Part shown: positions 10,659 through 46,098 of the stretch, piece by piece
Position numbering within the stretch: the first letter of the stretch is position 1
Layout of the letters: every line of letters begins with the position of its first letter
Virus record (IMG/VR): IMGVR_UViG_3300024520_000099
Coordinates: 1 to 52,728 of that record
Source of the DNA: a virus
DNA length: 52,728 nt
Direction: 5' to 3' (one strand)
The notes under the pieces: generated by a model
The model's input: the letters and a program-made list of their open reading frames with translations, nothing else
Told to the model about the DNA's origin: nothing
Database searches by the model: none
Translations under genes and position numbers: made by a program

Positions 10659-11154
10659 GTTCGATGCTGGCCACCGCGTCCTGGGCCACGAATCGAAATG
10701 TGCTCACCTGCACGGTCACAGGTATGTCGTGGAGATCACCGTGTCCAGCTTCGGGCTCGATGAGATCTCGCGGGTCGTTGACTTTGGCGTAGTGAAGGGG
10801 CTGGTCGGCCAGTGGCTCGATGAGAACTGGGACCACAACATGCTGCTTCACATGGACGACCCATTGCTCGAAGCGAACGTCCCGGTCAGGCTCGACGGAG
10901 ACACCGACAAGCTCATGTCGTGGAAGGAAGCCCTCGACCTTGTCCAGGCTGGTACGCACGTGAACTTCTCCAGCGAACCCATCTTCGGTGGCAAGGTTCC
11001 GTACATTGTGCCGAACCGCGAGAACCCAACGGCCGAGGTCATGTCGCGGTTGCTGTACGAGAAGGCTCGCGAGCTACTCGACAACAATGGGCTTCAGGTA
11101 CACGCCGTTCGCCTCTACGAGACACCGAACTGCTGGGCGGACCATGAAGGGTGA
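10633..11154 (+). CDS. queD: 6-carboxy-tetrahydropterin synthase
   Basis: 173 residues, T-fold family. It converts 7,8-dihydroneopterin triphosphate into 6-carboxy-5,6,7,8-tetrahydropterin, the second step to 7-deazaguanine bases. Zinc ligands His14, His27 and His29 (HLHGH) and the catalytic Cys23 are present, with VDFGVVKGLV and ENWDHNMLL (Asp-His) following the QueD pattern; a longer loop before NPTAEV is an insertion. ATG 10633 follows CTGGAGAAACCAG and lies inside the radical SAM gene, so the two are translationally coupled. Confidence 0.9.
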   Translation: MPQITRKLEFDAGHRVLGHESKCAHLHGHRYVVEITVSSFGLDEISRVVDFGVVKGLVGQWLDENWDHNMLLHMDDPLLEANVPVRLDGDTDKLMSWKEALDLVQAGTHVNFSSEPIFGGKVPYIVPNRENPTAEVMSRLLYEKARELLDNNGLQVHAVRLYETPNCWADHEG

Positions 11155-11155
11155 A

Positions 11156-11171
11156 CCGTCCCGACAATGCT
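11156..11171 (+). repeat. Motif copy 4 (CCGTCCCGACAATGCT)
   Basis: Immediately after the queD stop codon and upstream of a long hairpin; 94 bases before ATG 11266 of queE. Confidence 0.45.
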
Positions 11172-11175
11172 GTGG

Positions 11176-11227
11176 CGGGTGAAGGGGACACCTGGCTGGG
11201 CCACAGTCACCTCCGCCCCTTCACCCG
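11176..11227 (+). other. Long nested hairpin in the queD-queE gap
   Basis: CGGGTGAAGGGG (11176-11187) pairs perfectly with CCCCTTCACCCG (11216-11227). The 28-base loop holds a smaller hairpin, TGGC/GCCA at 11193-11203. No T-tract follows. It could end or pause transcription, stabilise the message or act as a regulatory RNA. It does not match the preQ1-I riboswitch pattern as I know it. Confidence 0.55.
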
Positions 11228-11265
11228 TCGTTCATTTCACCACTACCCACGGAAGGACCGAGACC

Positions 11266-11958
11266 ATGACGACACAGCTCAACACACAGACACCCGAGAA
11301 ACCAACGCAAGACCCTGACTCGATTGAAGTCCACCACATCTGGGACACCATTCAAGGTGAAGGGCCCCACGCCGGACGGCCGGCTGTGTTCGTTCGACTC
11401 ACTGGTTGCAACATCCAGTGCCCTGCTTGCGATACCGAGTACACTAGCGAACGTCGTCTGCTGTCTCCGGATGGAGTGGTAGAAGTGGTGAGGGGGATCC
11501 GCCCGTCAGGATTGGTTGTCCTGACGGGTGGAGAACCCATGCGCCAGAACATCAGCAAACTGGTCGAGACGCTACTCGACGCACGGTACGAAGTGCAGAT
11601 CGAAACCAACGGCACCATCTTTCGAGCCCTTCCGTTTGACAACATGAACTTGGTCATCGTGTGCTCACCCAAGACAGCGAACGTGAACGCCAAGTTCGCG
11701 ATTCATGTTGACGCTTGGAAGTACGTGCTCGATGCCTGTCACGTGGACCCGAAGGACGGTCTACCCACTACCACAATGAACCACGATGGTCCTGTGTCGC
11801 GGCCGCTCCGTGGTGGTGGTGCGGAGATCTACGTGCAGCCCCTCGACGAGGGTCACCCGGGACCCAACGGTAGAAACCTGGCGGCAGCCGTGAAGAGCGT
11901 GAGAACCTACGGCTACCGGCTGTGCCTACAGACACACAAGATCATAGGGCTTGAATAG
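11266..11958 (+). CDS. queE: 7-carboxy-7-deazaguanine synthase (radical SAM)
   Basis: 230 residues from ATG 11266 after GGAAGGACCGAGACC. QueE contracts 6-carboxy-tetrahydropterin to 7-carboxy-7-deazaguanine (CDG), the base precursor. The signature DTIQGEGPHAGRPAVFVRLT leads into GCNIQCPACD, in which Cys48, Cys52 and Cys55 form CX3CX2C. VVLTGGEPM is the SAM-binding GGE motif and QIETNGT the next conserved strand. Length is normal for the family. Hairpins lie on both sides of the gene (11176-11227 and 11958-12051), suggesting its own expression control. Confidence 0.93.
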   Translation: MTTQLNTQTPEKPTQDPDSIEVHHIWDTIQGEGPHAGRPAVFVRLTGCNIQCPACDTEYTSERRLLSPDGVVEVVRGIRPSGLVVLTGGEPMRQNISKLVETLLDARYEVQIETNGTIFRALPFDNMNLVIVCSPKTANVNAKFAIHVDAWKYVLDACHVDPKDGLPTTTMNHDGPVSRPLRGGGAEIYVQPLDEGHPGPNGRNLAAAVKSVRTYGYRLCLQTHKIIGLE

Positions 11959-12051
11959 GGGCACCACACGACGCACAGGGCGTCGTTCGCCCCAGAAGAC
12001 GTAATACCAGACCCCGCCCCTGTGGAGACGCTTAGAACGCCCCACAGGGGC
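11958..12051 (+). other. Tandem hairpins after queE
   Basis: The first hairpin has outer arms GGGGC (11958-11962) and GCCCC (11989-11993) and inner arms ACGACGC (11968-11974) and GCGTCGT (11980-11986). The second pairs GCCCCTGTGG (12016-12025) with CCACAGGGGC (12042-12051), perfect over 10 bp with a 16-base loop. Neither is followed by a T-run beyond TTACCTGTTT. They may attenuate transcription or protect RNA ends upstream of the FolE fusion gene. Confidence 0.55.
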
Positions 12052-12076
12052 TTACCTGTTTAGAGGAGAAAGACCC

Positions 12077-13009
12077 TTGACAGTGAACGAGAAACCTGCT
12101 TGCGAGAAGTACGAACTGAGCTGGGAAGACATTCACATGCGGGCGGCACTCCTGGCCAAGCATCTCCGCGACACGTTCCCGACGCGGGTCGAGATGAACG
12201 CCTACCCTGTGCCACGCGGCGGCATCTACGCGGCACAAGCCCTGCTCACAATGATGGCCGGTAGCACGCGGCCCCTCTCGTTGAACATTGTCGAGGAAGT
12301 GAACGACGCTGACTTCATCATCGACGACATCGTAGACAGTGGAGCAACCCGCAAGCACTACGAACCATTCGCGTTGCCGTTCTTCGCACTCGTCGACAAG
12401 CAGATGGAGAAAGAGATCACGCAGAAGTGGGTGGTCATGCCGTGGGAACGAATGACCAATGAGAAGGGACCCGAGGAGAACATCACACGACTGTTGCAGT
12501 TCATTGGTGAGAAGGTCGGTCGCGAAGGTCTCAAGGAAACCCCGCAGCGTGTCATCAAGTCGTACGCACAGATCTTCGCCGGCTACAAACAAGACCCCGC
12601 GGACGTGATGAAGGTATTCGAAGACGGAGCCTGTGACGAGATGGTCCTGCTCCGCGACATCGAATTCTATTCAGTGTGTGAGCATCACATGCAACCGTTC
12701 TTCGGTCGAGCCCACATCGCGTACATCCCCAACGACAAGGTCCTGGGCGTGAGCAAGCTCGCTCGGGTGCTCGACATCTACGCTCGCCGGCTCCAGATAC
12801 AAGAGCGGTTGACCAGCCAAGTGACGACGGCACTGATGGAACATCTCAAGCCCAAAGGCGCGGCGTGTGTACTCGAAGCGAAGCACTTCTGCATGGTCTG
12901 TCGCGGGGTCGAGAAACAGAACAGTCGCATGGTCACCAGTTCCCTTCAGGGAGCATTCAAAGAAGACGCAGCCACTCGGGCTGAGTTCTACTCGATGATC
13001 CGCGACTAG
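12077..13009 (+). CDS. folE: Phosphoribosyltransferase - GTP cyclohydrolase I fusion
   Basis: 310 residues. Residues 1-125 resemble a type I phosphoribosyltransferase: DADFIIDDIVDSGATRKHY (78-95) is the PRPP-binding loop and PVPRGGIYAA the PPi-contact segment. Residues 126-310 are GTP cyclohydrolase I, which turns GTP into dihydroneopterin triphosphate, the first step of deazaguanine synthesis: SVCEHHMQPF gives Cys201, His203 and His204, and HFCMVCRG gives the second zinc cysteine. TTG 12077 fits AGAGGAGAAAGACCC best; GTG 12083 is an alternative. The fusion may link base salvage or transfer to pathway entry; that is inference. Confidence 0.87.
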   Translation: MTVNEKPACEKYELSWEDIHMRAALLAKHLRDTFPTRVEMNAYPVPRGGIYAAQALLTMMAGSTRPLSLNIVEEVNDADFIIDDIVDSGATRKHYEPFALPFFALVDKQMEKEITQKWVVMPWERMTNEKGPEENITRLLQFIGEKVGREGLKETPQRVIKSYAQIFAGYKQDPADVMKVFEDGACDEMVLLRDIEFYSVCEHHMQPFFGRAHIAYIPNDKVLGVSKLARVLDIYARRLQIQERLTSQVTTALMEHLKPKGAACVLEAKHFCMVCRGVEKQNSRMVTSSLQGAFKEDAATRAEFYSMIRD

Positions 13010-15823: not shown

Positions 15824-16820
15824 GGAACTACTCAATCAGCTTGAGAGCATCAAGCCGGGACTGTCACCCCGCGAGATCATTGAGCAATCGTCTTGCTTCG
15901 TGTTCGAAGACGGGAAGGTGATGACGTACAACGACGAGATCGCCTGCACGCAAGACAGTTGCCTGAAGATCACTGGAGCCGTGCAAGCGGAACCTCTGAT
16001 CGCAGTGCTCGCCAAGCTCCCCAACGACCAAGTCGAGATCGTCGAGGAAGGCAGCGAACTGAAGATCAAAGCCGGTAGGCGGGAGTCGGGTATTCGCCGA
16101 GAGGCGGAGGTCCTGTTGCCCATCGAGTCGGTGGAGAAACCCAAGAAGTGGCACAAGCTGCCTGAGGACTTCGGCGATGCGGTCTACATCGTGATGCAGT
16201 GTGCAGGACGAGACGAGTCGCAGTTCGTTATCACCTGTGTCCACATCACCAAGAACCACATCGAGGCGTGCGACAACTTCCAGCTCAGTCGCTACCCGAT
16301 GGAACTACCCATCCGCGGGAACTGCCTTGTGCGAGCCGACAGTCTCAAGCACGTCTGCGACCTCGACATGACCGAGTTCGCCGAGACCCAGACATGGGTT
16401 CACTTCCGCAACCCCACAGGGCTCGTTCTATCGTGTCGCAAAAGCATGGACGACTACCCAGACATTTCTCCGCTGCTCGACGTTGAGGGGGCGGCTACGA
16501 CGCTGCCAAAGGGACTGGCCGAGGCTACCCAGATGGCACAGATCTTCTCCAGCGAGAACGCGGACAACGACAGCGTCCTAATCAACCTGTCACCCAAGAA
16601 GGGCGGCATGCTCCGCGTCGCAGGGGAAGGCGCTTCCGGGTGGTATCGCGAGACCAAGAAGCTCAAGTACGTCGGCGAACCAATGAAGTTCCGCATCGCC
16701 CCGAAGTTGCTGATTGAGTTGACTAAGCGACACAACGAATGCGAGATCAGCAACGACCGCCTACTGGTGAACGGTGGCAAGTTCCGTTACGTCACATGCC
16801 TTGGAGCAGCCGATGAATAA
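15804..16820 (+). CDS. DNA polymerase sliding clamp (DnaN-like)
   Basis: 338 residues from ATG 15804 after AAAAGGAGTTGAATCTG. The protein fits a beta-clamp in size (bacterial DnaN is about 366) and in pattern: repeated strand-rich segments such as CFVFEDGKVMTYNDE, ITCVHITKNHIEACDNFQLS and LLVNGGKFRYVT. Sequence is diverged and individual clamp residues cannot be listed with certainty. A clamp is expected because a DnaX/RFC-like loader is encoded at 21336 and a polymerase at 18637. Confidence 0.6.
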   Translation: MTQVNREELLNQLESIKPGLSPREIIEQSSCFVFEDGKVMTYNDEIACTQDSCLKITGAVQAEPLIAVLAKLPNDQVEIVEEGSELKIKAGRRESGIRREAEVLLPIESVEKPKKWHKLPEDFGDAVYIVMQCAGRDESQFVITCVHITKNHIEACDNFQLSRYPMELPIRGNCLVRADSLKHVCDLDMTEFAETQTWVHFRNPTGLVLSCRKSMDDYPDISPLLDVEGAATTLPKGLAEATQMAQIFSSENADNDSVLINLSPKKGGMLRVAGEGASGWYRETKKLKYVGEPMKFRIAPKLLIELTKRHNECEISNDRLLVNGGKFRYVTCLGAADE

Positions 16821-18033
16821 ACGCGGGTTCTTTGCAGGCTCGCAACTGGTGACCAAGGCCCCGATCGGGCTTCATCCCAAGTGTGGTGCCTGTGGTCTAC
16901 ACAAGAAATGCAACTCACCGAAACTACCTGTCGAGGGGAAGGGCGAACGCGGCATCATGGTAGTGGGTGAAGGTCCGTCCGCGGTGGAGGACGATGACGG
17001 GACACTGTGGGGTGACGCTGCTGGGAAGAAGCTACGAACACAACTGCAAATTCGTGGCATCGATCTCGATGAAGACTGCTGGTCAACCAAAGCCACAATC
17101 TGTCACACCACTGGAAAGCCCGGCGACGACATCACTGACTATTGCCGGCCGAACCTTACGAAGGCTATCAAGGAACGGAACCCGTCCGCGTTCTTGGTGC
17201 TTGGTGACTCAGCAGTACGCTCCCTGATTGGCGCCCTCTGGCGAGAGGCGCCAGGTTCAATCCACAAGTGGCAGGGCTGGACCATACCCTGCCAGAAGCT
17301 CAACGCCTGGATCCTACCAACGTTCAGGCCCGAGTTCGTTCTCAAGGAAGACAACCCTGTCCTGGACCAGATGTTCGAGGACACGTTGGAACGGTTGAGC
17401 GACATCGATGCTCGGCCGTTCGAGACACTACCAGATGAGAAGCGTGAGGTCGAACTGATACTGGACCCCGCCAAGGCAGCTCACATCATTCGCAAGATGA
17501 TCGAGAGGGGTGGCACAGTCGCATTCGACTACGAGACCAACATGCTGAAACCTGACAGTCCCGAAGCTACCATAGTGAGTTGCTCGGTCTGTTGGAACGG
17601 TAAGAAGACAATTGCATTCCCATGGCTCGGTGAAGCTATCACCGCCACCCGCGAATTGCTCCGCTCACCATTGGCCAAGATCGCAAGCAACTTGAAGTTC
17701 GAGGAACGGTGGACCCGTAGACTACTCAAGACGCGGGTTCGGAATTGGTGGTGGGACACAATGGTTGCCGCTCATGTGATCGACAACCGTCCTGGTATCA
17801 CCAGCATCAAGTTCCAGTCGTTCGTGCTACTTGGCTCGGACATCTGGGATGACCATGTTAGTCAGTTTTTGCATACGAAGGAGGGTTCGGGAGACGTCAA
17901 CCAGATACTCGAACAGGTCGATCTAAATGACCTGCTACTCTACAACGGGCTCGACAGTTTGCTCGAGTACCGTGTCGCGGAGAAGCAGATGAAGCACCTC
18001 AAGTACCCACTGCCCAAAGGGATGAAGAAATGA
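16813..18033 (+). CDS. Uracil-DNA-glycosylase-like domain fused to 3'-5' exonuclease
   Basis: 406 residues from ATG 16813 (ATGAATAA overlap with the clamp gene). Residues 20-200 resemble a family 4/5 uracil-DNA glycosylase: CGACGLHKKC (Cys24, Cys27, Cys33) for an iron-sulphur cluster and VVGEGPSAVEDDDGTLWG (50-67) for the active loop. Residues 215-406 are a DnaQ/PolA-type proofreading exonuclease with FDYETN (Asp239, Glu241), WWDTMVAAHVID and YNGLDSLLEYRV. A UDG-like domain ahead of exonuclease and polymerase is known from some phage family A polymerases such as that of SPO1; here the polymerase domain is in a separate gene at 18637. Confidence 0.82.
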   Translation: MNKRGFFAGSQLVTKAPIGLHPKCGACGLHKKCNSPKLPVEGKGERGIMVVGEGPSAVEDDDGTLWGDAAGKKLRTQLQIRGIDLDEDCWSTKATICHTTGKPGDDITDYCRPNLTKAIKERNPSAFLVLGDSAVRSLIGALWREAPGSIHKWQGWTIPCQKLNAWILPTFRPEFVLKEDNPVLDQMFEDTLERLSDIDARPFETLPDEKREVELILDPAKAAHIIRKMIERGGTVAFDYETNMLKPDSPEATIVSCSVCWNGKKTIAFPWLGEAITATRELLRSPLAKIASNLKFEERWTRRLLKTRVRNWWWDTMVAAHVIDNRPGITSIKFQSFVLLGSDIWDDHVSQFLHTKEGSGDVNQILEQVDLNDLLLYNGLDSLLEYRVAEKQMKHLKYPLPKGMKK

Positions 18034-18647
18034 AACAGTACGACGCACTTCAACGCGAAGTAGGACCGTGGAGCGTAGCCAACTTCGGCGACCAGGAATC
18101 GCCGTTCTTCTTGCTCAAGATGGAGCCGTTCCCGCCCGACTGGAAAGTCAACCACCCTATGCCACCGACGATGGTTTGCATGGGGAGCTTGGCTCCGCTC
18201 ATGGGTATCGTGGAAGAACTCGGAGAGCTGGCAGAGACCAAGGTGACCGCTGACCTCGAGGACGCTCTCGGAGACGTGTTCGTTTACCTGTGTGACTACT
18301 GCCACCGTGAAGGGTTCACACTACCCATCGGGCGACATCTCAAGTTCCAACTCGAGCCGCCGAACCTGGACGCGTTCGCGGGGATGATCGCCTACATCGG
18401 GAAGCTCTACCACGGCTGTCTGAAACGACATCAAGGCATTCGCGGGTTCGACAACGACGAGACATGGGAAGCTCACCGCAACTACTGTGTTGCCATGCTA
18501 CTCGTGTACATGCAGAAGTTCGCGGACGAGACACTCAACGAACGACTACTGGTCATCGCCAACAAGACGTGGACCAACGTGGTCCAGAAGCGAGACTGGA
18601 AGAAGTCGCCAACAGATGGTGGAGGTTTTGACCACTATGCGAATTGA
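18030..18647 (+). CDS. MazG-like nucleotide pyrophosphohydrolase
   Basis: 205 residues. MGIVEELGELAET followed by DLEDALGDVFVYLCDYC gives the EExxE...ExxD metal-binding pattern of all-alpha NTP pyrophosphohydrolases, which clear non-canonical or signalling nucleotides. The C-terminal half adds a second helical region. It starts in an ATGA overlap with the exonuclease gene and overlaps the polymerase gene by 11 bases, so it sits exactly between two halves of one polymerase. It may purify the dNTP pool, or spare it when DNA carries modified bases. Confidence 0.75.
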   Translation: MKQYDALQREVGPWSVANFGDQESPFFLLKMEPFPPDWKVNHPMPPTMVCMGSLAPLMGIVEELGELAETKVTADLEDALGDVFVYLCDYCHREGFTLPIGRHLKFQLEPPNLDAFAGMIAYIGKLYHGCLKRHQGIRGFDNDETWEAHRNYCVAMLLVYMQKFADETLNERLLVIANKTWTNVVQKRDWKKSPTDGGGFDHYAN

Positions 18648-20004
18648 AGCAGCCACGCCCGAAGCGTACCGACTGTTCCACGATGGCGTCATAGCGTTCG
18701 CCGGCGTTGAGGAGAACGGTATTCGCATTGACACTGATTACCTTGACAATGAGATCACCCGCACCAAACGCCGCATCAAGAAGGGCGAAGATCATCTCAA
18801 GAAGTCAGATGTCTGGAAGGCGTGGAAGAAACGATTCGGTGGCAAAGCGAAGCTCGGTTCGAAGCCACAACTGGCGACCATGTTCTTTGATGAGATGGGC
18901 TATGTCCGTAGCGAAACTGGCAAACAACAAGATGAGGCAGCTTTCTCCAACGTCGACCACCCGTTCATCAAGAACTACTTCAAAGTCGAGAAGCTGAAGA
19001 AGGTCGTTGGGACATACCTCACTGGCATACGTCGTGAGGTGGTAGGTGACCGAGCCCACGTCTTTTTCAACCTGCACACTGTGAAGACCTACCGCGGAAG
19101 TGCCGACCGGTTCTCGTACCAGAACCTGCCAATACGAAACCCTGAAATGGGTGGCATCGTACGCAAGGCGTTCATCCCAAGCGACGGTCACGTCCTGGTT
19201 GAGATCGACTACTCGGGCCTCGAGTTCACCATGGCTGGGGCAATCACCAAGTGCCCACAGGTCAACCGATACATCGTGGAAGGCGGAGACCCGCACCGCG
19301 ACATGGCGGCACTCGTGTTCAAGTGCGAGCAAGACGAAGTCTCCAAGCAGATGAGGTACTGTGGGAAGAACCAGTTTGTCTTCCCCCTGCTGTACGGTTC
19401 TTACTACCGTTCTGTCGCTCCGGTACTTTGGTCGTCCATGGCTACGATGGACCTGAAGATAGGCGATGCGGGGCTGCTCGATCGCTTCGCGGGGATGGGC
19501 ATAGATGAGCTTGGAGACTTGGACCCACGCACCACCCATCCCGGGACATTCGAGCACCACATGAAGGAGTGCGAGAAGGAGTACACACAGAAACGGTTCA
19601 AGCAGTGTTTCGCGAATCAACGGAAGGCGTACGAGACCTATCGCAAGACCGGCCGTGTCGAGTTCGTCACAGGGTTCCAGGCTAGTGGGATGATGAGTCG
19701 TAACGACGTCTACAACTGGCGCATTCAAGGGCCGGCGTTTCACTGCCTACTGTGGTCAATGATCAAGCTTCACAACTGGCTGGTGAAGTCCAAGTTCAAG
19801 TCAATGATCGTGGGCCAGATCCACGACAGTATCATCGCAGACGTTCACGTAGACGAACTCGAAGACTACCTGTCTTATGCCAGGTATGTCATGACGCAAG
19901 AGATCCGCGAGCATTGGAAATGGCTATGCGTGCCCCTCGATGTTGAAGCGGAAGTCACACCCGAAGGCGGCACGTGGAATGACAAGAAGGTCCACCAGAT
20001 ATGA
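18637..20004 (+). CDS. Family A DNA polymerase, polymerase domain
   Basis: 455 residues from ATG 18637 (TGGAGGTTTTGACCACT before it); ATG 18616 is an alternative. Motif A is EIDYSGLEF (189-197), motif B spans the Arg240-Lys244-YG254 region of MRYCGKNQFVFPLLYGSYY, and motif C is GQIHDS (393-398). The exonuclease is missing and lies two genes upstream, so the polymerase is split. Thumb-to-finger spacing is normal. It should replicate the phage genome with the clamp, helicase and exonuclease subunits. Confidence 0.92.
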   Translation: MRIEAATPEAYRLFHDGVIAFAGVEENGIRIDTDYLDNEITRTKRRIKKGEDHLKKSDVWKAWKKRFGGKAKLGSKPQLATMFFDEMGYVRSETGKQQDEAAFSNVDHPFIKNYFKVEKLKKVVGTYLTGIRREVVGDRAHVFFNLHTVKTYRGSADRFSYQNLPIRNPEMGGIVRKAFIPSDGHVLVEIDYSGLEFTMAGAITKCPQVNRYIVEGGDPHRDMAALVFKCEQDEVSKQMRYCGKNQFVFPLLYGSYYRSVAPVLWSSMATMDLKIGDAGLLDRFAGMGIDELGDLDPRTTHPGTFEHHMKECEKEYTQKRFKQCFANQRKAYETYRKTGRVEFVTGFQASGMMSRNDVYNWRIQGPAFHCLLWSMIKLHNWLVKSKFKSMIVGQIHDSIIADVHVDELEDYLSYARYVMTQEIREHWKWLCVPLDVEAEVTPEGGTWNDKKVHQI

Positions 20005-22870: not shown

Positions 22871-24139
22871 ATGGCGAAAAGAACATCTGGCAAGCGGAAG
22901 CGTGTCAGCGGTAAGAAGCGAGCACAGGAGCACAAGAGCGGGTTCGATCGAACAGCGATCAACGTGCCCGATGGCTGTGACCTGTTCTCGCTCGGCAAGG
23001 AAGGCACGAAGCGGATTGAGATTGTCCCCTTCACTGCTGGAGCGGACAACCCATACGCCGACAAGGGCGAACTCCACTACGAGCGAACGTTCTTCACGCA
23101 TCGTGGTATCGGAGCCAGCGAGGACACCTACATCTGCCCGAAGAAGACGTGGGGCAAGAAGTGTCCGATCTGCGAGGCGAAGGCGAAGCTCTCCCAAGAC
23201 CCGGACGCCGACGAGGATGCGGTGAAGGCGCTCAAGTGGAGCGAGCGTCAGTTGTTCAACGTGTTCGATCATGGCGATCCCGACAAGGGTCTCCAGTTGT
23301 GGGACTTCACCTTCCACTGGTTCGGCAAGTTGCTCGACGCTCGTATCAAGAACCAGGAAGAGGACGACGAGTACGAATTCTTCGCCGACCCCGAAGACGG
23401 TTTCACCTTGAGACTGACCATCGAGGAATCGGATTTTGCGAAGGGCAAGTTCGAGGTCTCCGCGATCGACTTCAAGGCTCGCAAGAAACCGTTGGACGAG
23501 GAGCTGCTCGAGGCCGCTCTGATTCTCGACGACCTGCTGATCGAAGTTCCGTACGACAAGCTCAGCGACATCTTTCTCCAAGTCGACGGCCCCGATGAGA
23601 AGACGGGTGACGATGACGACGACGACGACGAGCCCGCAAAGAAGCCGCGGACCCGGAAGCCGAAGCCCTCATCCACCACCACCAAGAAGGGCGGTGGCAA
23701 GAAGCCCCCAAAGAAGGAGCCCGAACCGGAGGAGGACGAGGACGATGAAAGCTTCGACGCCGACGCAGACGGCGACTTCGAGGAGGATGAACCGGACGCC
23801 GACGAAGACGCCGGGGATGACTCTGACGGGGATGATGACGGCGACGATGATTGGGATGATGACGAAGGCGATGGCGACGGAGACGATTCGGATTCGGATG
23901 ATGACGGAGACGATGACGACCCCGATGGGGACGCCGCTGACGATACGGACGACGACGATGACGACGATTGGGACGACGACGACGACGTCCCTTTTGAAGA
24001 AGATGACGACGAAGAGCCCGACGAGGAACCGGCACCCAAGAAGAGCCGGTCGAGATCCTCGAAGTCGTCATCGAAGAAGGGCAAAGCATCAGGTTCGACA
24101 AAGAAACCGAGCCGGAGCCGGTCCCGCTCAAGCAAGTAA
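22871..24139 (+). CDS. ssDNA-binding protein with very long acidic tail
   Basis: 422 residues. The first about 240 look like a gp32-type single-stranded DNA-binding protein: basic N-terminus, an aromatic and basic core, and a zinc site in YICPKKTWGKKCPICEAK. From about residue 245 the protein is dominated by Asp/Glu runs, broken by basic patches (TRKPKPSSTTTKKGGGKK), and ends in a Ser/Arg/Lys tail. T4 gp32 has a short acidic tail that competes with DNA and recruits partners; here the tail is far longer. It coats ssDNA at forks and during recombination. Confidence 0.75.
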   Translation: MAKRTSGKRKRVSGKKRAQEHKSGFDRTAINVPDGCDLFSLGKEGTKRIEIVPFTAGADNPYADKGELHYERTFFTHRGIGASEDTYICPKKTWGKKCPICEAKAKLSQDPDADEDAVKALKWSERQLFNVFDHGDPDKGLQLWDFTFHWFGKLLDARIKNQEEDDEYEFFADPEDGFTLRLTIEESDFAKGKFEVSAIDFKARKKPLDEELLEAALILDDLLIEVPYDKLSDIFLQVDGPDEKTGDDDDDDDEPAKKPRTRKPKPSSTTTKKGGGKKPPKKEPEPEEDEDDESFDADADGDFEEDEPDADEDAGDDSDGDDDGDDDWDDDEGDGDGDDSDSDDDGDDDDPDGDAADDTDDDDDDDWDDDDDVPFEEDDDEEPDEEPAPKKSRSRSSKSSSKKGKASGSTKKPSRSRSRSSK

Positions 24140-24239: not shown

Positions 24240-25343
24240 GTGACAGACGACGACACAGGAGACGTGAAAGCGAAGCTACGGACCAAAGCCAAACGTCCCA
24301 AGCCGGTGGCTGGTGCAAAGCTCTTGTCCAGTGGCTCCACACTGCTCGACCTAGGCTGCTCAGGTTCACCACGAGGGGCGTATGCGAAGGGTCAGTACAT
24401 CTTCTTTGTCGGCGACAGTGATAGCGGCAAGACGTGGTACTCGATGACCCTGTTCGCCGAAGCAGCACGCAACAAGAAGTTCGACGACTACGACTTCATC
24501 TACGACCCAGCCGAGGGCGGGGCACAGATGGACATTGAATACTACTTCGGCGAAGACGTAGCAGACCGGCTCCAAGCACCACAGGAGAACGAAGACGGTG
24601 ATGGGGTCGCATCCGCGTTCGTGGAGGACTTCTACATCAACCTTGACCGTCGCTTGGACAGTGGGGTTCCCTGCATCTACGTGCTCGATTCCATGGATGC
24701 TCTCAACCCCCGCATAGCCGATGAGAAGTTCGAGGACGACCGCGATGCTATCGAGGCGGGGAAGGAAACGGGTGGCACGTATGGGACCGACAAAGCGAAG
24801 CTGAACTCGAACAACCTACGTCGGGTCATTCCCAAGCTCCGCGAGACTGGTTCTATCCTGGTCATCATCTCACAGACCCGGGACAACATCGGGTTCGGTG
24901 CACAGTACAACCCCAAGACGCGGGGCGGTGGTAGGGCACTCAAGTTCTACGCTGACATTGAGATCTGGACGAGCGTCAAGGGCGGTATCGCTAAGACTGT
25001 TCGCAAGAAGAAACGACACGTTGGCAACCTGTCGCTATGCAAGGTGAAGCGTAGTCGCCTGACCGGTCGCAAGGCCGAGGTCATTGTCCCGTTCTACCAT
25101 GAGCACGGCATAGACGATGTGGGGTCGTGTATCGAATACCTGATCGACGAAGGCCACTGGACCAAGCCCAAAGGCAAGAAGGTATTCGAGGCACCCGAGT
25201 TCGAGTTCACAGGGCAGGAAGAGAAGCTCATCCAGCTCATCGAGGAAGAAGGTCGCGAGAGGGAACTCAAGATTCTCGTGGGCACCGTATGGAAGGAAGT
25301 CCTTGAAGCATCCCGCGTGAAAAGGAAGCGTCGTTATGAGTGA
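24240..25343 (+). CDS. RecA/UvsX-like recombinase
   Basis: 367 residues from GTG 24240 after CAGGAGAGAGAAC and a CA-rich leader. Walker A is VGDSDSGKT (57-65), the Walker B strand is IYVLDSMDAL, and LRRVIPKLRETGSILVIISQ is the following strand-helix with the conserved Gln. Loop 2 appears in FGAQYNPKTRGGG. The C-terminal part has a helical basic segment. It should form strand-exchange filaments with the neighbouring ssDNA-binding protein. Confidence 0.85.
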   Translation: MTDDDTGDVKAKLRTKAKRPKPVAGAKLLSSGSTLLDLGCSGSPRGAYAKGQYIFFVGDSDSGKTWYSMTLFAEAARNKKFDDYDFIYDPAEGGAQMDIEYYFGEDVADRLQAPQENEDGDGVASAFVEDFYINLDRRLDSGVPCIYVLDSMDALNPRIADEKFEDDRDAIEAGKETGGTYGTDKAKLNSNNLRRVIPKLRETGSILVIISQTRDNIGFGAQYNPKTRGGGRALKFYADIEIWTSVKGGIAKTVRKKKRHVGNLSLCKVKRSRLTGRKAEVIVPFYHEHGIDDVGSCIEYLIDEGHWTKPKGKKVFEAPEFEFTGQEEKLIQLIEEEGRERELKILVGTVWKEVLEASRVKRKRRYE

Positions 25344-25770
25344 GTGGAACCAAGCCCAAGACGAGGTCATGCTGCTCATGGTCTTACAAGCCCAGACCAA
25401 GAACCAGTATCAACGAGCCCTTGCGAAAGTCGCCGACAAGCTTCGCAAGGGTGAAGAAGAACACCACGGAGGGTCCAGGACAAAGCGACGTGATGGAGAC
25501 CCATGTCGTAGACGTCTGTGGGGCCTGGCGGTACGCGCCGTCGAGTACCCTGGACCCTCCGTGGCACGTACAAGCCGTGAAGGCTTTGACTGGTCGTGGG
25601 CTGAGTTGCTGGTTCTCAAGTGGGCGTTCACCGAGCAACCCAAGCAAGCAGACGGCAAGCCTGCACCCGACAATGAGTACATCGCCTCGCTCTTGTACCG
25701 GACAGTTGACGAGGTCCGGGAGAAGCGGGGACTCGACAGACCCGAGACCAAAGGATTCGGAATATTATGA
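25336..25770 (+). CDS. Unknown protein carrying an internal inverted repeat
   Basis: 144 residues. The N-terminal helix (QAQDEVMLLMVLQAQTKNQY) and the C-terminal part (SREGFDWSWAELLVLKWAF, then DEVREKRGLDR) look like normal protein. The middle, about residues 43-77, is very basic (RTKRRDGDPCRRRLWG) and is encoded by a 101-base segment bounded by 16-bp perfect inverted repeats. A smooth homologous core would be interrupted there if the segment were an insertion. The start overlaps the recombinase stop; the stop overlaps the flap endonuclease start. Confidence 0.6.
   Translation: MSEWNQAQDEVMLLMVLQAQTKNQYQRALAKVADKLRKGEEEHHGGSRTKRRDGDPCRRRLWGLAVRAVEYPGPSVARTSREGFDWSWAELLVLKWAFTEQPKQADGKPAPDNEYIASLLYRTVDEVREKRGLDRPETKGFGIL
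25464..25564 (+). repeat. 101-base element bounded by 16-bp perfect inverted repeats
   Basis: CCACGGAGGGTCCAGG (25464-25479) is the exact reverse complement of CCTGGACCCTCCGTGG (25549-25564). The 69-base interior folds further: CGACGTG/CATGTCG (25486-25492 with 25502-25508, extended by GG/CC across a two-base bulge, loop AGA) and GGCG/CGCC (25527-25530 with 25536-25539). The result is a three-way-junction shape. CA flanks both sides (25462-25463 and 25565-25566). It lies inside an open frame and could be a small mobile palindrome, an embedded RNA or an mRNA control structure. Confidence 0.8.
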
Positions 25771-26669
25771 ACAAGTGGCTCATCCTCGACTGCTCATACC
25801 TGTGCCACCGTGCAATGCACACCACAGGCCAGCTGACGTTCGGCGACGTGAAGACGGGCATCATCTTTGGGTTCCTACGAGACATCGGGACCCTGTGTTC
25901 GTACCACGACACCCAACGGATCGCATTCTGCTTTGACTCGACCAAGAGCAAGCGACGAGAACTCTACGAACCGTACAAGCAAGCCCGTCGTGAGAAGTAC
26001 GAACAGATGGACGAGGAAGAGGCAAAGATCTGGACTGAGTTCAGGGCACAAGTACAGAAGCTCCGACGCGAGTATCTACCCGCCATAGGCTTCAACAACA
26101 TCTTCGTTCAACGCGGCCACGAAGCTGACGACATCATAGGTAGCCTGTGCTTGGAGACGCTGCCACAAGACGGCTCAGAGGGTGTGATTATCGCCAGTGA
26201 CCACGACCTATTCCAGTTGCTCGGTCCACTGGTGACAATGTGGAACCCGAACAAGAAGCAGTTCTACACAGCAGCTGACTTCAGGCGTGAATGGGGCATT
26301 GGGCCTGAGCGGTGGCACGAGGTCAAAGCCTTCGCTGGTTGCAGTGGTGATGGTGTCGAGGGCATCCCCGGCGTTGGTGAGAAGACAGCAGCCCGTTGGC
26401 TCAAGGGTGAAGTGAACCCAAAGCACAAAGTGCATGACAAGATACTCGGTGGGATGAAGACGTACACACGCAACGTGCCATTGGTCAGGTTGCCGTTCGA
26501 GGGGACAAAGGTCTTCGAACTGGTAGACGACGATGTCACCAAAGACAAGTGGAACGCCGTGTGCCAAGAGTTGGGCATGACCAGCCTAGAGGGAGTGGAC
26601 CTAGGACCCGACGTCAGGAGACGCGGGGTGAAGCCCAAGAACAAGCGAAAAGGATTTGGCCTGACATGA
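25767..26669 (+). CDS. 5'-3' exonuclease / flap endonuclease
   Basis: 300 residues of the PIN-fold FEN family. LILDCSYLCHRAMH and FCFDST carry metal-binding aspartates, GHEADDIIGSL and ASDHDLFQLL are the central acid clusters, and SGDGVEGIPGVGEKTAARWL is the helix-3-turn-helix that holds duplex DNA. It would remove RNA primers and flaps, the activity missing from the split polymerase. Confidence 0.88.
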   Translation: MNKWLILDCSYLCHRAMHTTGQLTFGDVKTGIIFGFLRDIGTLCSYHDTQRIAFCFDSTKSKRRELYEPYKQARREKYEQMDEEEAKIWTEFRAQVQKLRREYLPAIGFNNIFVQRGHEADDIIGSLCLETLPQDGSEGVIIASDHDLFQLLGPLVTMWNPNKKQFYTAADFRREWGIGPERWHEVKAFAGCSGDGVEGIPGVGEKTAARWLKGEVNPKHKVHDKILGGMKTYTRNVPLVRLPFEGTKVFELVDDDVTKDKWNAVCQELGMTSLEGVDLGPDVRRRGVKPKNKRKGFGLT

Positions 26670-27127: not shown

Positions 27128-28158
27128 AGACGCTACTCATGTTGCTGGTGCTGTGTAGCACCGCACACGCCGTGCAACCAGTTTACCACGGCACCGAAAC
27201 TGAGGTCTGCACGCAGATGCTCAAGAACGTTGAGTTCCACCCATGGCTGAAGGGCGCTCGTAATGAATGGAGACTGTGGGACAAGACCCGCGTCGACTTC
27301 TACACGCCCACTCACGCGGTGGAAGTTGACTGGGCCCGCAAGTGGGCAGAGGGTATCGGGCAGTCGCTCTACTACGCTGACGTGACCGGTCGTAAGCCCG
27401 GCTTGTGTCTGTTGGTGGAGCAGGACGGCTCCGACAGTCGCTACGTCTACCGAGCACAGACGGTCTGTGTGAAACGTGACATCAAAATCTGGTTGGTCCT
27501 GGTGAACAAGAAAGGACCGACGCCAGCCCCGAGGTTGCATAATGTCCCAGAAGAACTCCCACCGCCAGCTAGACCTGCCGGCGTGCCACCAGGACGTGCA
27601 GCTGACGGCTTCACTCCTCGAGGACAGCAAAATGAACTCAAGTTCAACGACACCGACATGGCCCTACTTCCACCTCACTTGGCAAATGGAACGTTCGAGC
27701 AAGTGGCATACGTTGTTCATGCCAAAGGACAGGGCGAGAGCGAAGGCGGAGGAGTTGAGCAAGGCGGGAGCGTACGAGGTCCGTGTGATGGAAGCCAAGA
27801 TGGTTTCACGTTGGGGCCCAATGGCGGACATGCCGGATGTGAAAACGGCAGTTGCCGACTACCACGAAGAACGACCGGTCCACAAGCCGGGCGACAGGGG
27901 AGCACTATCGTAGCCCCTCCTGAGTGCAACGCAACAGGATGTCATTTCCAGCCATGGATGGTCCCACAGACCCGAGCTGGAGTACCAAGCAGTGAACAAG
28001 TTCAGATTCACATTCGTTGGGGCAACTGCCCTCAACCAGGACGAAGCAACTGCCCGTCTTGGCGAACTACTGAGGGCCAGTTTCAAGCAGTGCCCTGTCC
28101 TTGTCCCCGAGGGCGTCGTGGCAGAACCTTGCGACGAGGATGGCGAACTGCTCGCTGA
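27124..28158 (+). CDS. Exported PD-(D/E)XK-like protein; 3' part doubtful
   Basis: The open frame is 344 residues. Residues 1-16 (MKTLLMLLVLCSTAHA) form a signal peptide with an AHA cleavage site. Residues 45-100 match a PD-(D/E)XK-like layout: Asp58, then EVDWARKW (Glu67, Asp69, Lys73) and GQSLYYA (Gln80). After about residue 139 the sequence is Pro/Gly-rich and overlaps two better genes in other frames. Reading one base back near 27540 would give TAA at 27540-27542, fused to ATG 27542 as TAATG, so a frameshift or sequencing error just upstream may hide a real length of about 139 residues. Confidence 0.55.
   Translation: MKTLLMLLVLCSTAHAVQPVYHGTETEVCTQMLKNVEFHPWLKGARNEWRLWDKTRVDFYTPTHAVEVDWARKWAEGIGQSLYYADVTGRKPGLCLLVEQDGSDSRYVYRAQTVCVKRDIKIWLVLVNKKGPTPAPRLHNVPEELPPPARPAGVPPGRAADGFTPRGQQNELKFNDTDMALLPPHLANGTFEQVAYVVHAKGQGESEGGGVEQGGSVRGPCDGSQDGFTLGPNGGHAGCENGSCRLPRRTTGPQAGRQGSTIVAPPECNATGCHFQPWMVPQTRAGVPSSEQVQIHIRWGNCPQPGRSNCPSWRTTEGQFQAVPCPCPRGRRGRTLRRGWRTAR
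27542..27913 (+). CDS. Small protein of unknown function
   Basis: 123 residues from ATG 27542, which follows CCGAGGTTGCATA; ATG 27632 (after CGAGGACAGCAAA) would give 93 residues. The C-terminal part (AKAEELSKAGAYEVRVMEAK, then SRWGPMADMP) has normal protein character, while the overlapping frame of the upstream gene does not. No family is recognised. Confidence 0.5.
   Translation: MSQKNSHRQLDLPACHQDVQLTASLLEDSKMNSSSTTPTWPYFHLTWQMERSSKWHTLFMPKDRARAKAEELSKAGAYEVRVMEAKMVSRWGPMADMPDVKTAVADYHEERPVHKPGDRGALS
27924..27995 (+). CDS. Possible 23-residue peptide
   Basis: GTG 27924 (or ATG 27939, or ATG 27954 in the same frame) runs to TGA 27993-27995, which overlaps GTG 27992 of the next gene as GTGA. 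The stop/start overlap is the only support; the peptide (ending DGPTDPSWSTKQ) has no recognised features. It also fills the otherwise empty gap after 27913. Confidence 0.2.
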   Translation: MQRNRMSFPAMDGPTDPSWSTKQ

Positions 28159-28252
28159 CCCCGATGAAGCTGGCAACTGCGGGGCCTGTGGTTCCGCGGT
28201 AGCACCTGATGCGGTCACGTGTCACCACTGTGGAGAAATGATCGAGCAATGA
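27992..28252 (+). CDS. Small zinc-ribbon protein
   Basis: 86 residues from GTG 27992. The N-terminal strand-helix (MNKFRFTFVGATALNQDEAT) precedes a Glu/Asp-rich middle and a C-terminal zinc ribbon with CGACG and CHHCG pairs. It is joined by ATGA to the SbcC-like gene, so it may be an accessory of that complex; no function is known. Confidence 0.65.
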   Translation: MNKFRFTFVGATALNQDEATARLGELLRASFKQCPVLVPEGVVAEPCDEDGELLADPDEAGNCGACGSAVAPDAVTCHHCGEMIEQ

Positions 28253-29274
28253 TCACTGAGATACGACTAGCGAACTTTCAAGGATGGCGACGGCTCAAGG
28301 TGAAGCTGGACGAACGGGTGACCACACTCGTTGGACCTAGCGACCGAGGGAAGTCCGCTGTCATCCGAGCCCTGAAGTGGATCGCGTTCAACCGCCCGCG
28401 AGGCGATGCGATGATCCGCGACGGGGCAAAGTTCGTTGGCGTATCGGTGTTCGTAGACGATCATCAAATCACACGTAAGAAGGGAAGCGTCAACCACTAC
28501 TCGATGCGACCCGTTGGAGAAGAAGAAGGCGTGACGTACAACGCCTTCGGGACACAGGTCCCGGACGACATCGCAGAACTACTCAACGTCGGAGAGGTCA
28601 ACTTCCAAGACCAACATGATCCGCCGTACTGGTTCACGTTGTCCCCGGGACAGGTGTCCAAACAACTGAACGCGATTGTTGACCTAGGCATCATCGACGA
28701 CACGTTGAAGAACCTGGCATCGCAAGTACGCACCCACAAAGAAGCCGTCGCCATCCATACCGAGCACGTGGTCACTGCCAAAGCGACTGTCGCTGAATTC
28801 GCTCGAATACCCGAAGCAAGTGGTAGCCTGGCCTACGTGGAGACGAAACTCTCCGAATATGAGACGATAGCTTCACAGCGACGTTCCTTGGGGCGTTGTA
28901 TGGAACAGGTCTCAACGGTCGCGTCCCTCTCTAAAAGCCTGAAGGAACGTGCCACAGGGGCTCGAAATTGTGTTCAAACAGGCGGTATCGTTGTAGAACG
29001 GGCTGAACAGGTAGATCAACTGGAAAGACTGGTCTCCAAGTACGAAACCGCTCACCGTGGCTCTACCGCACCTGACTTCAGTGGTGTCGAGCACAACAAG
29101 ACACAGCACGACCAGTGTGAGACCAGGACCCATGACCTCGCACGTCTGGTTCACAAGCTCACACAAGCCCAAGCTCGGTTCGACCAAGCAACTACATCTC
29201 ACCAAGCAACCCATCAAATCATCGAAAGAGAATGCGAAGGAGTGTGTCCACTATGTCACAACCAGTTGTCTTGA
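28249..29274 (+). CDS. SbcC/Rad50-like ATPase, N-terminal half to the zinc hook
   Basis: 341 residues from ATG 28249. Walker A is VGPSDRGKS (28-36), the Q-loop region is NFQDQHDPPYWF, and a coiled coil follows to a C-terminal CPLC (333-336). CPLC is the Rad50 zinc hook, normally at the middle of the protein, so this gene stops right after the hook. The signature, Walker B and returning coiled coil are encoded separately at 30551 and 30732. With the nuclease at 29253 it should hold and trim DNA ends. Confidence 0.85.
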   Translation: MITEIRLANFQGWRRLKVKLDERVTTLVGPSDRGKSAVIRALKWIAFNRPRGDAMIRDGAKFVGVSVFVDDHQITRKKGSVNHYSMRPVGEEEGVTYNAFGTQVPDDIAELLNVGEVNFQDQHDPPYWFTLSPGQVSKQLNAIVDLGIIDDTLKNLASQVRTHKEAVAIHTEHVVTAKATVAEFARIPEASGSLAYVETKLSEYETIASQRRSLGRCMEQVSTVASLSKSLKERATGARNCVQTGGIVVERAEQVDQLERLVSKYETAHRGSTAPDFSGVEHNKTQHDQCETRTHDLARLVHKLTQAQARFDQATTSHQATHQIIERECEGVCPLCHNQLS

Positions 29275-30188
29275 CCGTGAGCGACCTCCACTTGTCGCAC
29301 AGACCACCACTGGCCCGCATGGCTGAGCCTGACTGGTATGACGTGATGAAGCGTCACCTGCTTGAGATCGAATCGGTGGCAGAGAAGCACAAGATCCCAG
29401 TCGTCTACGCTGGTGACATCTTCCACAAGTACAACCCGCCACCACGGCTCATCGCGTTCGCCCTCAAATACCTGCCCAGCGGATGGGCCATACCAGGACA
29501 ACACGACCTGCCGCATCACGTCTATGAGAACATGGACCGCACGGCATACGGTTGCTTGGTCGAGGCTGGTGTGATCAAGAACATCCACCCCGACCGCTAT
29601 GCGTATCTTGAGGTCCCAAACAAGGACGTTCTCTCGCCCGACAGCTTAGTCAGGCTTGTGGGGTTTCCATGGGGCACCGAGTTCATACCACTGGACCGAG
29701 AAGACCGCGATGGGTACACGAGCATCGCCATCGTGCACAAGTACATCTGGACGAAGGGCAAAGGGTACAAAGGCGCAAGCGAAGACGCCCTCATTGGCAA
29801 GTACCGCAAGACATGCAAGACCTACAATGCGGTCGTATTCGGTGACAACCACAAGGGCTTCCTAGTGGGCAAGCACGTGGTGAACAACGGCACCATGATG
29901 CGACGGAACTCTGACGAGATTGGGTACGACCCATGCTACTCGCTGATACACGACAACGGCGAGATCGCCCGAGCTGAGTTCAAGTGCTGTGACGAAGATG
30001 TGTTCACAGATGTAAACGAGGGTGTCGCTCTTGTGGAGCGTGCACTAGACATGACGGAGTTCATTGGTGAGCTGGGCCAACTAGGCACAGACGCACTGGA
30101 CTTCTTCGAAGCCCTGAAGAGATTCTGCGATGCCGAAGGTATCAGTGATGAAGTACGGTCCCGCGTCATGGATGCGGCCGGTAGATGA
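29253..30188 (+). CDS. SbcD/Mre11-like nuclease
   Basis: 311 residues from ATG 29253 (GAAGGAGTGTGTCCACT before it). Metallophosphoesterase motifs appear in order: SDLHLSH, YAGDIFHK, PGQHDLPHH (a GNHD variant with Gln), a His in SIAIVHKYIW, and GDNHKGF in place of GHxH. The C-terminal part is helical. Together with the SbcC halves on both sides it forms an Mre11-Rad50-type end-processing complex. Confidence 0.85.
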   Translation: MSQPVVLTVSDLHLSHRPPLARMAEPDWYDVMKRHLLEIESVAEKHKIPVVYAGDIFHKYNPPPRLIAFALKYLPSGWAIPGQHDLPHHVYENMDRTAYGCLVEAGVIKNIHPDRYAYLEVPNKDVLSPDSLVRLVGFPWGTEFIPLDREDRDGYTSIAIVHKYIWTKGKGYKGASEDALIGKYRKTCKTYNAVVFGDNHKGFLVGKHVVNNGTMMRRNSDEIGYDPCYSLIHDNGEIARAEFKCCDEDVFTDVNEGVALVERALDMTEFIGELGQLGTDALDFFEALKRFCDAEGISDEVRSRVMDAAGR

Positions 30189-30197
30189 TGGAGCGAC

Positions 30198-30560
30198 ATG
30201 GAACTACCCGAAGAAGAAACCTTCATACCGGCAGCGATGTCGTATGAAGAGAACGCATGGGAGGGCTACCACGCCACTCTAAGGGAACACGCTGACCCGC
30301 ATGGGTCACGCGAGGACCACGGTGCGTTCCTACCAGACCCCGATGAAGTCCGAGCACGAATAGGACAGATGCGGTGGCTGGCAGAACTAGGTTTCGATGA
30401 CAGGTTCATGTGCAGTGTAATGCAATACGAATGTCCGACAATACACTTAGTCAGACGCATGGTGAAGAGGTACGGTGTCACCGAGACCATTCGCCGGCTC
30501 GAACCTATGCTTGAGAAAACAGAATACGACCGAGAACTCAGAGGACCATCATGGGAATAG
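30198..30560 (+). CDS. Unknown protein between the SbcC halves
   Basis: 120 residues, acidic with clear helices (DPDEVRARIGQMRWLAELGF, then IHLVRRMVKRYGVTETIRRL). No catalytic motif is visible. It overlaps the coiled-coil gene by ten bases. Its place inside the split SbcC operon suggests a part in the same machine. Confidence 0.6.
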   Translation: MELPEEETFIPAAMSYEENAWEGYHATLREHADPHGSREDHGAFLPDPDEVRARIGQMRWLAELGFDDRFMCSVMQYECPTIHLVRRMVKRYGVTETIRRLEPMLEKTEYDRELRGPSWE

Positions 30561-30805
30561 ACCTCGAACGATACAACGAGTTGAAGGACCACGCTGACAA
30601 AGCCCAACGTGAAGCTGACAAGCAGAAGGGCGTACTCGAAGAGCTGAAGGCACAGCTCAAACGGGACTTCGGGGTTTCAACGCTCAAGGCTGCGAAAGCC
30701 AAACTGAAACAGTTCCAGGAGGAGCAAGACGATGCCGAACGAACCTACGAACAAGCCCTCGCTCAGTTCCTCGAAGACTATCCAGAGTTTGAGGAAGAAG
30801 CTTGA
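30551..30805 (+). CDS. Short coiled-coil protein, probable returning arm of split SbcC
   Basis: 84 residues, nearly one long heptad-like helix: YNELKDHADKAQREADKQKG, LEELKAQLKRDF, AKAKLKQFQEEQDDAERTYE. It has no ATPase motif. It lies between the SbcC N-half with its hook and the C-half, and its last 74 bases overlap the C-half. The simplest reading is that it supplies part of the second coiled-coil strand. Confidence 0.65.
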   Translation: MGIDLERYNELKDHADKAQREADKQKGVLEELKAQLKRDFGVSTLKAAKAKLKQFQEEQDDAERTYEQALAQFLEDYPEFEEEA

Positions 30806-31343
30806 TGGGTTGCTGGAGTCAAGGCGAACGGCTAAGGCACTACACAAGACCCACGTCGCAGCCCTCACCACAGCAGAAGACGAACTCACATTCGCCGATG
30901 AAGCTCACCAGTTAGCACAGGACGTAGCCCGAGCGATCCAAGAACACTGCCACGCTCAGATCGCTGCCGTGGTATCACGTTGTCTAGAGGCCGTGTTCCC
31001 AGACAACCCATACGAGTTCGTGCTCCACTTCGAGAGACGCGCCAATCGCACCGAATGCCGCCTTTCATTCGTTCGCAACGGGCTAGAGGTAGACCCAACG
31101 TCGGCCAGTGGTGGTGGAGTGGTAGACGTCGCGTGCTTCGCTCTCAGGTTAGCCGCTCTAATGCTCAGCAGACCACCGAAACGCCGGCTGGTGGTACTCG
31201 ACGAACCATTCAAATTCGTGTCCCGGGAATACCTTGAGAACGTCCGGTTGATGCTGGAGACATTGGCAGAAGAGATGCAGGTCCAGTTCATTATGGTCAC
31301 CCACATCGAGGAACTTCAAACAGGAAAGGTCATCACGTTATGA
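30732..31343 (+). CDS. SbcC/Rad50-like ATPase, C-terminal half
   Basis: 203 residues from ATG 30732, with AGGAGGAGCAAGACG before it. A helical N-terminus is followed by the ABC ATPase signature SASGGGVVDVACFALRLAAL (124 onward), Walker B LVVLDEPF (153-160) and the H-loop MVTH near residue 190. It lacks Walker A and hook, which are encoded in the gene at 28249. Two chains must join to form one ATPase head. Confidence 0.85.
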   Translation: MPNEPTNKPSLSSSKTIQSLRKKLDGLLESRRTAKALHKTHVAALTTAEDELTFADEAHQLAQDVARAIQEHCHAQIAAVVSRCLEAVFPDNPYEFVLHFERRANRTECRLSFVRNGLEVDPTSASGGGVVDVACFALRLAALMLSRPPKRRLVVLDEPFKFVSREYLENVRLMLETLAEEMQVQFIMVTHIEELQTGKVITL

Positions 31344-45237: not shown

Positions 45238-46098
45238 ATGCCAGTTATCAACACCGACGCCGTCTTGTGGTACAACGTGGGCCAGTTTGGTCAGTTGGGC
45301 TACGGCGTTCCCAATCCCAGCGACGACCCCGGCTCGCTGAACCCGATGATTGTGGACTTTGTCAACCTGTCGGGACGCAACCTGTTCCACATCATGCACC
45401 ATGAGGACGTGGACCTCAGGACCCCGCCAAGTATCAACACGATCCGCCGCGTGCACAAGCTCTACGTCAGGCTCGCACAGATCCTGGCCAGCAGAGCGGT
45501 GCCACCACACGAGCTGAACATCGAGACGCAGCACGTGCAACCCGCCGGCGAAGTGTTCCGCGTGTTCCCTGTGCCGTACTTCAAGGTTCGCTCGCCGTTC
45601 CTGAAGCGATGGGCCGAACTGATCATGATCATGATGGCCGAAGCGATGCAGCACACTGAGAACCGGAAGTCGATGGAGATCTCCACGAACTTCGCAGGTC
45701 AGGTCGGCCAGTACATGACGCGGGTCTACCGTAACATGGCAACCGAGCTGTTCGGTAAGACGCGAGACGAAGTCCACGTGGACGGGTTCATTCTCACCGA
45801 AGAAGAGCTGGGCGTTTACAACCCCGCTGAGTACTTCACCAGCACCGAGATGATTGACACGGTTCCCCACTTGGGACACGTGTTCACTGAAGACCGGTTG
45901 AGCGTGATCAGTGATGGCATCCCCATCACGAGCCTTCCGGAACTCACCCCATGGCCGACGAACCTCACGTCGTATTACAACTCGACCAAGAGCTTCCGAG
46001 ATGCGAACGCGGACGACGCGAACATCAACGATCCGACCTCGGGTGCACATCCCAGTCCTGGCGGCGGCCCGGTCATTCCTCCGCCACCCGGACCGTAG
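45238..46098 (+). CDS. Putative structural protein, function unknown
   Basis: 286 residues from ATG 45238, preceded by AAGGAGATCGAG; the frame is open upstream. The sequence has mixed strands and helices (INTIRRVHKLYVRLAQILAS, RWAELIMIMMAEAMQHTENR) and a Pro/Gly-rich tail (GGGPVIPPPPG) typical of virion proteins. It lies directly before the prohead protease. No family is recognised. Confidence 0.6.
   Translation: MPVINTDAVLWYNVGQFGQLGYGVPNPSDDPGSLNPMIVDFVNLSGRNLFHIMHHEDVDLRTPPSINTIRRVHKLYVRLAQILASRAVPPHELNIETQHVQPAGEVFRVFPVPYFKVRSPFLKRWAELIMIMMAEAMQHTENRKSMEISTNFAGQVGQYMTRVYRNMATELFGKTRDEVHVDGFILTEEELGVYNPAEYFTSTEMIDTVPHLGHVFTEDRLSVISDGIPITSLPELTPWPTNLTSYYNSTKSFRDANADDANINDPTSGAHPSPGGGPVIPPPPGP

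Follow-up and report, generated by a model that had tools for sequence, protein, structure and literature searches.

Rad50 and SMC proteins are normally made as a single chain that folds back on itself, with a head built from its two ends, and in ordinary Rad50 the two arms of the coil are equal in length. Mre11-Rad50/SbcCD complexes are known from cells, and the phage pairs T4 gp46/47 and T5 D13/D12 belong to the same class. A different arrangement is found in the virus record IMGVR_UViG_3300024520_000099 (positions 1 to 52,728, referred to below as the window), where five plus-strand genes follow one another at 28249-31343. This locus very probably encodes a phage Mre11-Rad50 complex in which Rad50 is made as two polypeptides, accompanied by a small third protein. 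The genes, with the names used for them here, are as follows.

28249..29274, plus strand: N, Rad50 N-half, 341 aa; lobe I with Walker A, helical stalk, CPLC at residues 333-336
29253..30188 (alternative ATG 29232), plus strand: M, Mre11/SbcD-like phosphoesterase; motifs DxH, GD, GQHD, H, GDxH
30198..30560, plus strand: S1, small accessory protein with no assigned function; match in 10 of 222 group representatives
30551..30805, plus strand: S2, 84-aa helical hairpin; conserved core component
30732..31343, plus strand: C, Rad50 C-half, 203 aa; helix of about 55 residues, lobe II with signature, Walker B and H-loop

Two halves of Rad50 and an Mre11-like partner

In the window, the N-half has a Walker A motif that reads GPSDRGKS and a C-terminus that ends in GVCPLCHNQLS, directly followed by the stop. 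It scores 28 bits with Pfam AAA_23, above the cut-off of 27, and matches phrog_16465, annotated as 'exonuclease', at 4.9e-24. When a profile of 22 N sequences was compared with solved structures, Rad50 3aux_A was the best match (3e-19), and chain A of 1f2t was also matched. The residues G29, G34, K35 and Q122, which belong to the Walker A and Q-loop of lobe I, are invariant among 58 N sequences, and Walker A is present in 136 of 137 N ORFs. Among the 197 N ORFs with a stop inside the locus, 195 have a CxxC (the exceptions being those of Magritte and L048), at a median of seven residues from the end; it lies within 20 residues of the end in 189 and within 40 in 195, so that its placement there is not due to chance. 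Upstream of N, an 86-aa zinc-ribbon-like ORF (27992-28252) overlaps the N start with its stop (ATGA), and relatives do not keep it; a conserved zinc-ribbon gene at this place was considered and rejected, as a small two-CxxC ORF precedes 17 of 198 N genes and several of these look spurious.

The C-half has an SGGG signature, a Walker B that reads LVVLDEP and a VTH H-loop, and its ATG at 30732 follows a good ribosome-binding site, AGGAGG, located about 9 bases upstream. It matches phrog_15167, annotated as 'ATPase' (9.1e-20; PHROG profile length 211), and a profile of 26 C sequences again has Rad50 3aux_A as its best match among solved structures (5.2e-14), with chain B of 1f2t also matched. D157 and Q185 are invariant among 60 C sequences, in which E158, G128 and G129 are kept in at least 90%, and H191 of the H-loop is kept in at least 90% of 26 C sequences. 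The first residue of the signature is variable (SGGG, AGGG, VGGG, TGGG, DSGG), and the D-loop reads FKF, which we take to depart from the usual form; together these suggest that ATP use may differ. Neither half by itself has all the motifs of an ATP site, so the head has to be completed in trans, and an ATPase head assembled from two chains would follow from the positions of the motifs.

The third gene product, M, belongs to no Pfam family and has weak PHROG matches, and its profile matches Mre11 1ii7 at 3.7e-10, over a region limited to the first 85-153 positions (about the first third). D11, H13, G54, D55, H84, D85, H162 and H200 are invariant among 24 M sequences, and the phosphoesterase motifs of Mre11/SbcD are found with two substitutions: in 129 M ORFs, GNHD reads GQHD in 115 and GHxH reads GDxH in 122. 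M is considered here a putative nuclease.

An earlier note on this DNA had described Rad50 as being split at its zinc hook, with Mre11 between the halves, and this is borne out by the motifs, the profile matches and 160 groups of loci that have both halves unfused. It had the N-half stopping four to eight residues past the hook, which agrees with the five residues that follow CPLC in the window, and it had placed the signature, Walker B and H-loop on a separate gene 1.5 kb later; C starts about 1.46 kb after the N stop, with M, S1 and S2 in between. The Mre11-like gene and the two small genes that it had named in this interval are present, but a coiled coil merely lying between the halves does not describe S2, which is part of the conserved core.

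Conservation of the split among relatives

Relatives were gathered as 315 loci from scans of viral contigs (with C of the window, alignments of C and of N, M, and a divergent N alignment), one genome scan and cultured records; the N and M scans gave 354, 314 and at least 511 relatives, and the best 80 of each were taken. Loci that share a gene were merged into 222 groups, which are not equivalent to independent events and among which the scattered pieces of one cultured phage are counted separately. N and C occur together in 160 of the 222 groups, in the order N-M-S2-C in 148. Of 147 groups in an earlier set, 108 were complete, and each of these had its four genes on the same strand. A search for other split Rad50 in phages, which the earlier note had proposed, thus finds them in these groups and in cultured phages. 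The gene order could, speculatively, have arisen when a rad50-mre11 pair was duplicated and the two copies then lost opposite parts. In the scan of bacterial genomes a single relative of C was found, on an Anaerolineae MAG contig, and since the query was one short conserved word, rarity in bacterial genomes is a weak statement.

The cultured phages with a split Rad50 infect hosts that we take to represent four bacterial phyla. In Bacillus phage vB_BboS-125, N is followed by an AP2-domain gene, a 78-aa gene and C, and an unannotated Mre11-like gene lies further on (L029 5902-6882, about 22.4-23.4 kb of NC_048735.1). Microcystis phage Mvi-JY20 has N, M, a 94-aa gene and C. In Microbacterium phage Magritte, N, M, S2 and C are found at 93.8, 119.7, 127.3 and 0.3 kb, and in Tunturiibacter phage Tunturi_5 (circular, 308.7 kb) N and M are near 125 kb on the minus strand and C is at 19 kb on the plus strand. 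With the pieces so far apart in Magritte and Tunturi_5, the halves must work in trans. The N-half of Tunturi_5 has CGKC nine residues before its end; that of Magritte (L030 4001-5053) is without CxxC, yet this phage keeps all four components. Joining of the halves by a split intein or intron was rejected by inference, since a median of seven residues after CxxC leaves no room for half an intein, other genes intervene and the halves are on opposite strands in Tunturi_5.

The Rad50 split is natural and conserved, and is not decay. A single contig could be wrong, and a normal rad50 gene that has decayed in one genome, carries a frameshift or was misassembled is an alternative that the earlier note had raised. 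It had pointed to a continuous rad50 with the same neighbours in related genomes as the sign of this; such a gene is absent from all 160 groups holding both halves. In these, the two lobes, which in Rad50/SbcC are joined in a single chain by a long antiparallel coil, are on separate ORFs without exception, and 148 groups have the same four-gene order with separate open frames. Throughout the 222 groups, every ORF matches at most one family, and the N and C ORFs are never longer than 500 and 280 aa, respectively, although all scans were queried with members of the split family and distant fused relatives may fall outside. The split also recurs in cultured phages, including vB_BboS-125, whose paper has a section on PacBio sequencing (PMC6375668), and we consider the probability of decay or error to be negligible. 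A second contig, IMGVR_UViG_3300024518_001671, has all five genes at 100% protein identity.

Another reading is that the halves are not partners, N alone being a RecF/SMC-like DNA-binding protein and C a separate regulator. The genes are indeed separate, and structure comparison gives this reading some substance: in the AlphaFold model of N (58 sequences, mean pLDDT 88.5, pTM 0.48), the head comprises residues 1-146, and its best Foldseek match is Rad50 9a9j_A (1.9e-6), with Rad50 and SMC heads at the top and RecF heads also placed high, and in a second look with VIA, RecF, SMC and Rad50 rank close together. However, each half keeps only those motifs that are missing from the other, and both are kept in 160 groups. 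Among loci longer than 11 kb, six have N without C, and C was found elsewhere in the record for four of these; it was not found on the other two, which are short contigs with N-M-S2 (32.7 and 27.6 kb) and may be fragments. Unpartnered halves are therefore very unlikely.

Stalk length and the hairpin protein

The stalk of N changes in length in steps of about 43 residues. The distance from D150 to the hook, determined for 195 N-halves, is 139-147 residues in 33, 167-178 in nine, 180-200 in 123, 213-240 in 22 and 259-273 in six, with 297 and 317 found once each, and no member of this set has a length of 148-166, 201-212 or 241-258. In self-comparison, several N proteins have internal repeats of 38 to 47 residues, with offsets of 42 and 85 in L292, 45 and 90 in L271, 47 and 94 in L040 and 38 and 76 in Tunturi_5; the repeat signal is weak in L090, and averages over whole length classes are modest (up to z 2.3). 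In 191 non-redundant stalks the prolines sit at set places: a distance of 54-65 residues before the hook accounts for 159 of 304 prolines in the 165-201 class, 21 of 41 in the shortest class and 17 of 61 in the 213-245 class, and there are more peaks near 100 and 144 residues.

In 151 complete groups, stalk length is correlated neither with the length of the helix that leads the C-half (about 56 residues; rho -0.13, p 0.11) nor with that of S2 (about 83 residues; rho -0.11, p 0.18). As the stalk varies and the C helix and S2 are constant in length, the distal stalk cannot simply be a coil of N with C. The split does lie at the zinc hook, as first described, but it does not amount to the nicking of an ordinary antiparallel coil at its tip.

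An alternative reading is a two-chain Rad50 with a stalk that folds back, in which the last helix of N is packed on its own stalk, CPLC is placed midway along the rod and next to where the C-half begins, and S2 acts elsewhere as a regulatory subunit. The AlphaFold model has the N stalk in three helices (147-184, 187-269 and 278-329) with a weak turn at 272-275, and for the window taken by itself the lengths of the up-arm and down-arm would then roughly balance. With a pTM of 0.48, however, helix packing in this model is not determined, and in each of the three main length classes the last proline turn keeps its distance of 54-65 residues to the hook, so that a longer stalk would unbalance the arms. 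We regard a folded-back stalk as doubtful.

Of the 160 groups that have both halves, 152 also have a detected S2 protein, and in 148 of these the order is the standard one; S1 lies outside this core module. In a model of S2 from 60 sequences (pLDDT 96.0), helices 5-40 and 45-76 form a hairpin. The S2 alignment has a nearly invariant Gly27 and an FGC turn, and coupling analysis inside S2 pairs the start of helix 1 with the end of helix 2, which is consistent with a hairpin. The S2 profile did not detect a member in Tunturi_5, vB_BboS-125 or Mvi-JY20; in divergent members under the profile threshold, an ORF that resembles S2 in size and make-up, and by that resemblance alone, precedes C. S2 as a detectable relative of the Rad50 coil was rejected, as a profile search of the PDB gave a coiled-coil background in which Rad50 fragment 6zff (E 0.029) stood beside keratin and syndapin. 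The S2 model had no Foldseek match with E below 0.001, and a second look at three chains with VIA gave a best Z of 2.6.

S2 would most likely pack on the stalk and stand in for helical length that the short C-half cannot provide. An extension of this proposal, which is more speculative and on balance improbable, is a self-assembling rod in which several S2 hairpins splint the N helix, one for each module of about 43 residues, with three-helix bundles replacing the returning half of the coil. We know of no Rad50 or SMC protein with a rod of this kind, and if it were true, the number of modules in one gene would set the length of a machine built from a repeated loose part. In a coupling analysis of 151 loci with seven residue classes, the top pairs of S2-C, S2-M and N-C were no better than shuffled pairings, and S2-N, M-C and N-M couplings were above the two or three shuffles made, but many top pairs are at gappy chain ends, and none of these couplings is taken as a trustworthy signal between chains.

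Proposed complex, genomic setting and known systems

In the complex that we propose, N would supply lobe I (Walker A and Q-loop), the modular helical stalk and, at its very end, the hook cysteines, and C would supply the helix at the base of the stalk and lobe II (signature, Walker B and H-loop), with the two joining in trans to form one head. ATP may be bound between two such heads, which would gate the Mre11-like nuclease at DNA ends, and closure of the dimer is predicted to come from a zinc ion shared by the hook cysteines of two N-halves. The window has the following genes upstream of the locus.

22871-24139: SSB (phrog_1192) with a very long Asp-rich acidic tail
24240-25343: UvsX-like recombinase
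25767-26669: 5'-3' exonuclease
from 26666: RuvC-like resolvase

These neighbours make recombination-dependent replication the likely setting, in which the complex would process DNA ends together with the UvsX-like recombinase, SSB, 5'-3' exonuclease and RuvC-like resolvase. Scattering of the pieces in two cultured phages and variation in the Mre11-like active site might instead point to a nuclease for host takeover or counter-defence, outside repair and replication, but the company of these four genes in the window makes such a role quite unlikely.

Other features of the window were also observed. DNA polymerase I is in pieces as well (16774-18033, 18487-20004 and 25767-26669), of which the first combines a uracil-DNA-glycosylase domain with a 3'-5' exonuclease domain, the second is a family A polymerase domain on its own and the third is a separate 5'-3' exonuclease; a 205-aa ORF lies between the first and second pieces. 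At 9867-13009 there are two radical SAM proteins, a 6-pyruvoyl tetrahydropterin synthase homologue and a GTP cyclohydrolase I, a set that presumably recalls the 7-deazaguanine DNA modification genes (QueE, QueD, FolE). A predicted tRNA-Ala (CGC) on the minus strand (45947-46043) is unusually long at 97 bases.

A natural, widespread and long-kept split means that the loop which passes through the hook can be non-covalent, and the small pieces allow head engagement, zinc closure and rod length to be studied separately in the tethering of DNA ends. Two PHROG families and a conserved small protein, which pipelines treat as unrelated or hypothetical, gain a joint meaning. The most novel question that the split raises concerns how N, C and a hairpin of fixed size form a rod whose length is modular. 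A literature search of open-licence PMC papers returned no account of split Rad50/SbcC in phages and no paper on a two-fragment Rad50 construct.

The system resembles Mre11-Rad50/SbcCD in its lobe I and lobe II profiles, Walker A, Walker B, H-loop, CxxC hook and Mre11-like partner, and differs from it in the two-chain Rad50, the conserved third hairpin protein, the modular stalk and the GDxH nuclease. The same halves are already clustered apart as phrog_16465 and phrog_15167 and are present in a cultured phage as gp32 and gp35 of vB_BboS-125; these records label them exonuclease and ATPase and do not link them as one Rad50. Vibrio phage D386 also has a phage Mre11-Rad50 pair, and its SbcD is matched by a nuclease of the split family, but its SbcC is one continuous gene of 1,878 nt that follows SbcD, unlike the split halves. 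A head of two chains is likewise seen in the P. furiosus Rad50 crystals 1F2T/1F2U, with an N fragment of 149 aa and a C fragment of 148 aa that were reportedly expressed separately. This is an artificial construct without hook or S2, whereas the phage split is natural and keeps the stalk and the hook on the N chain.
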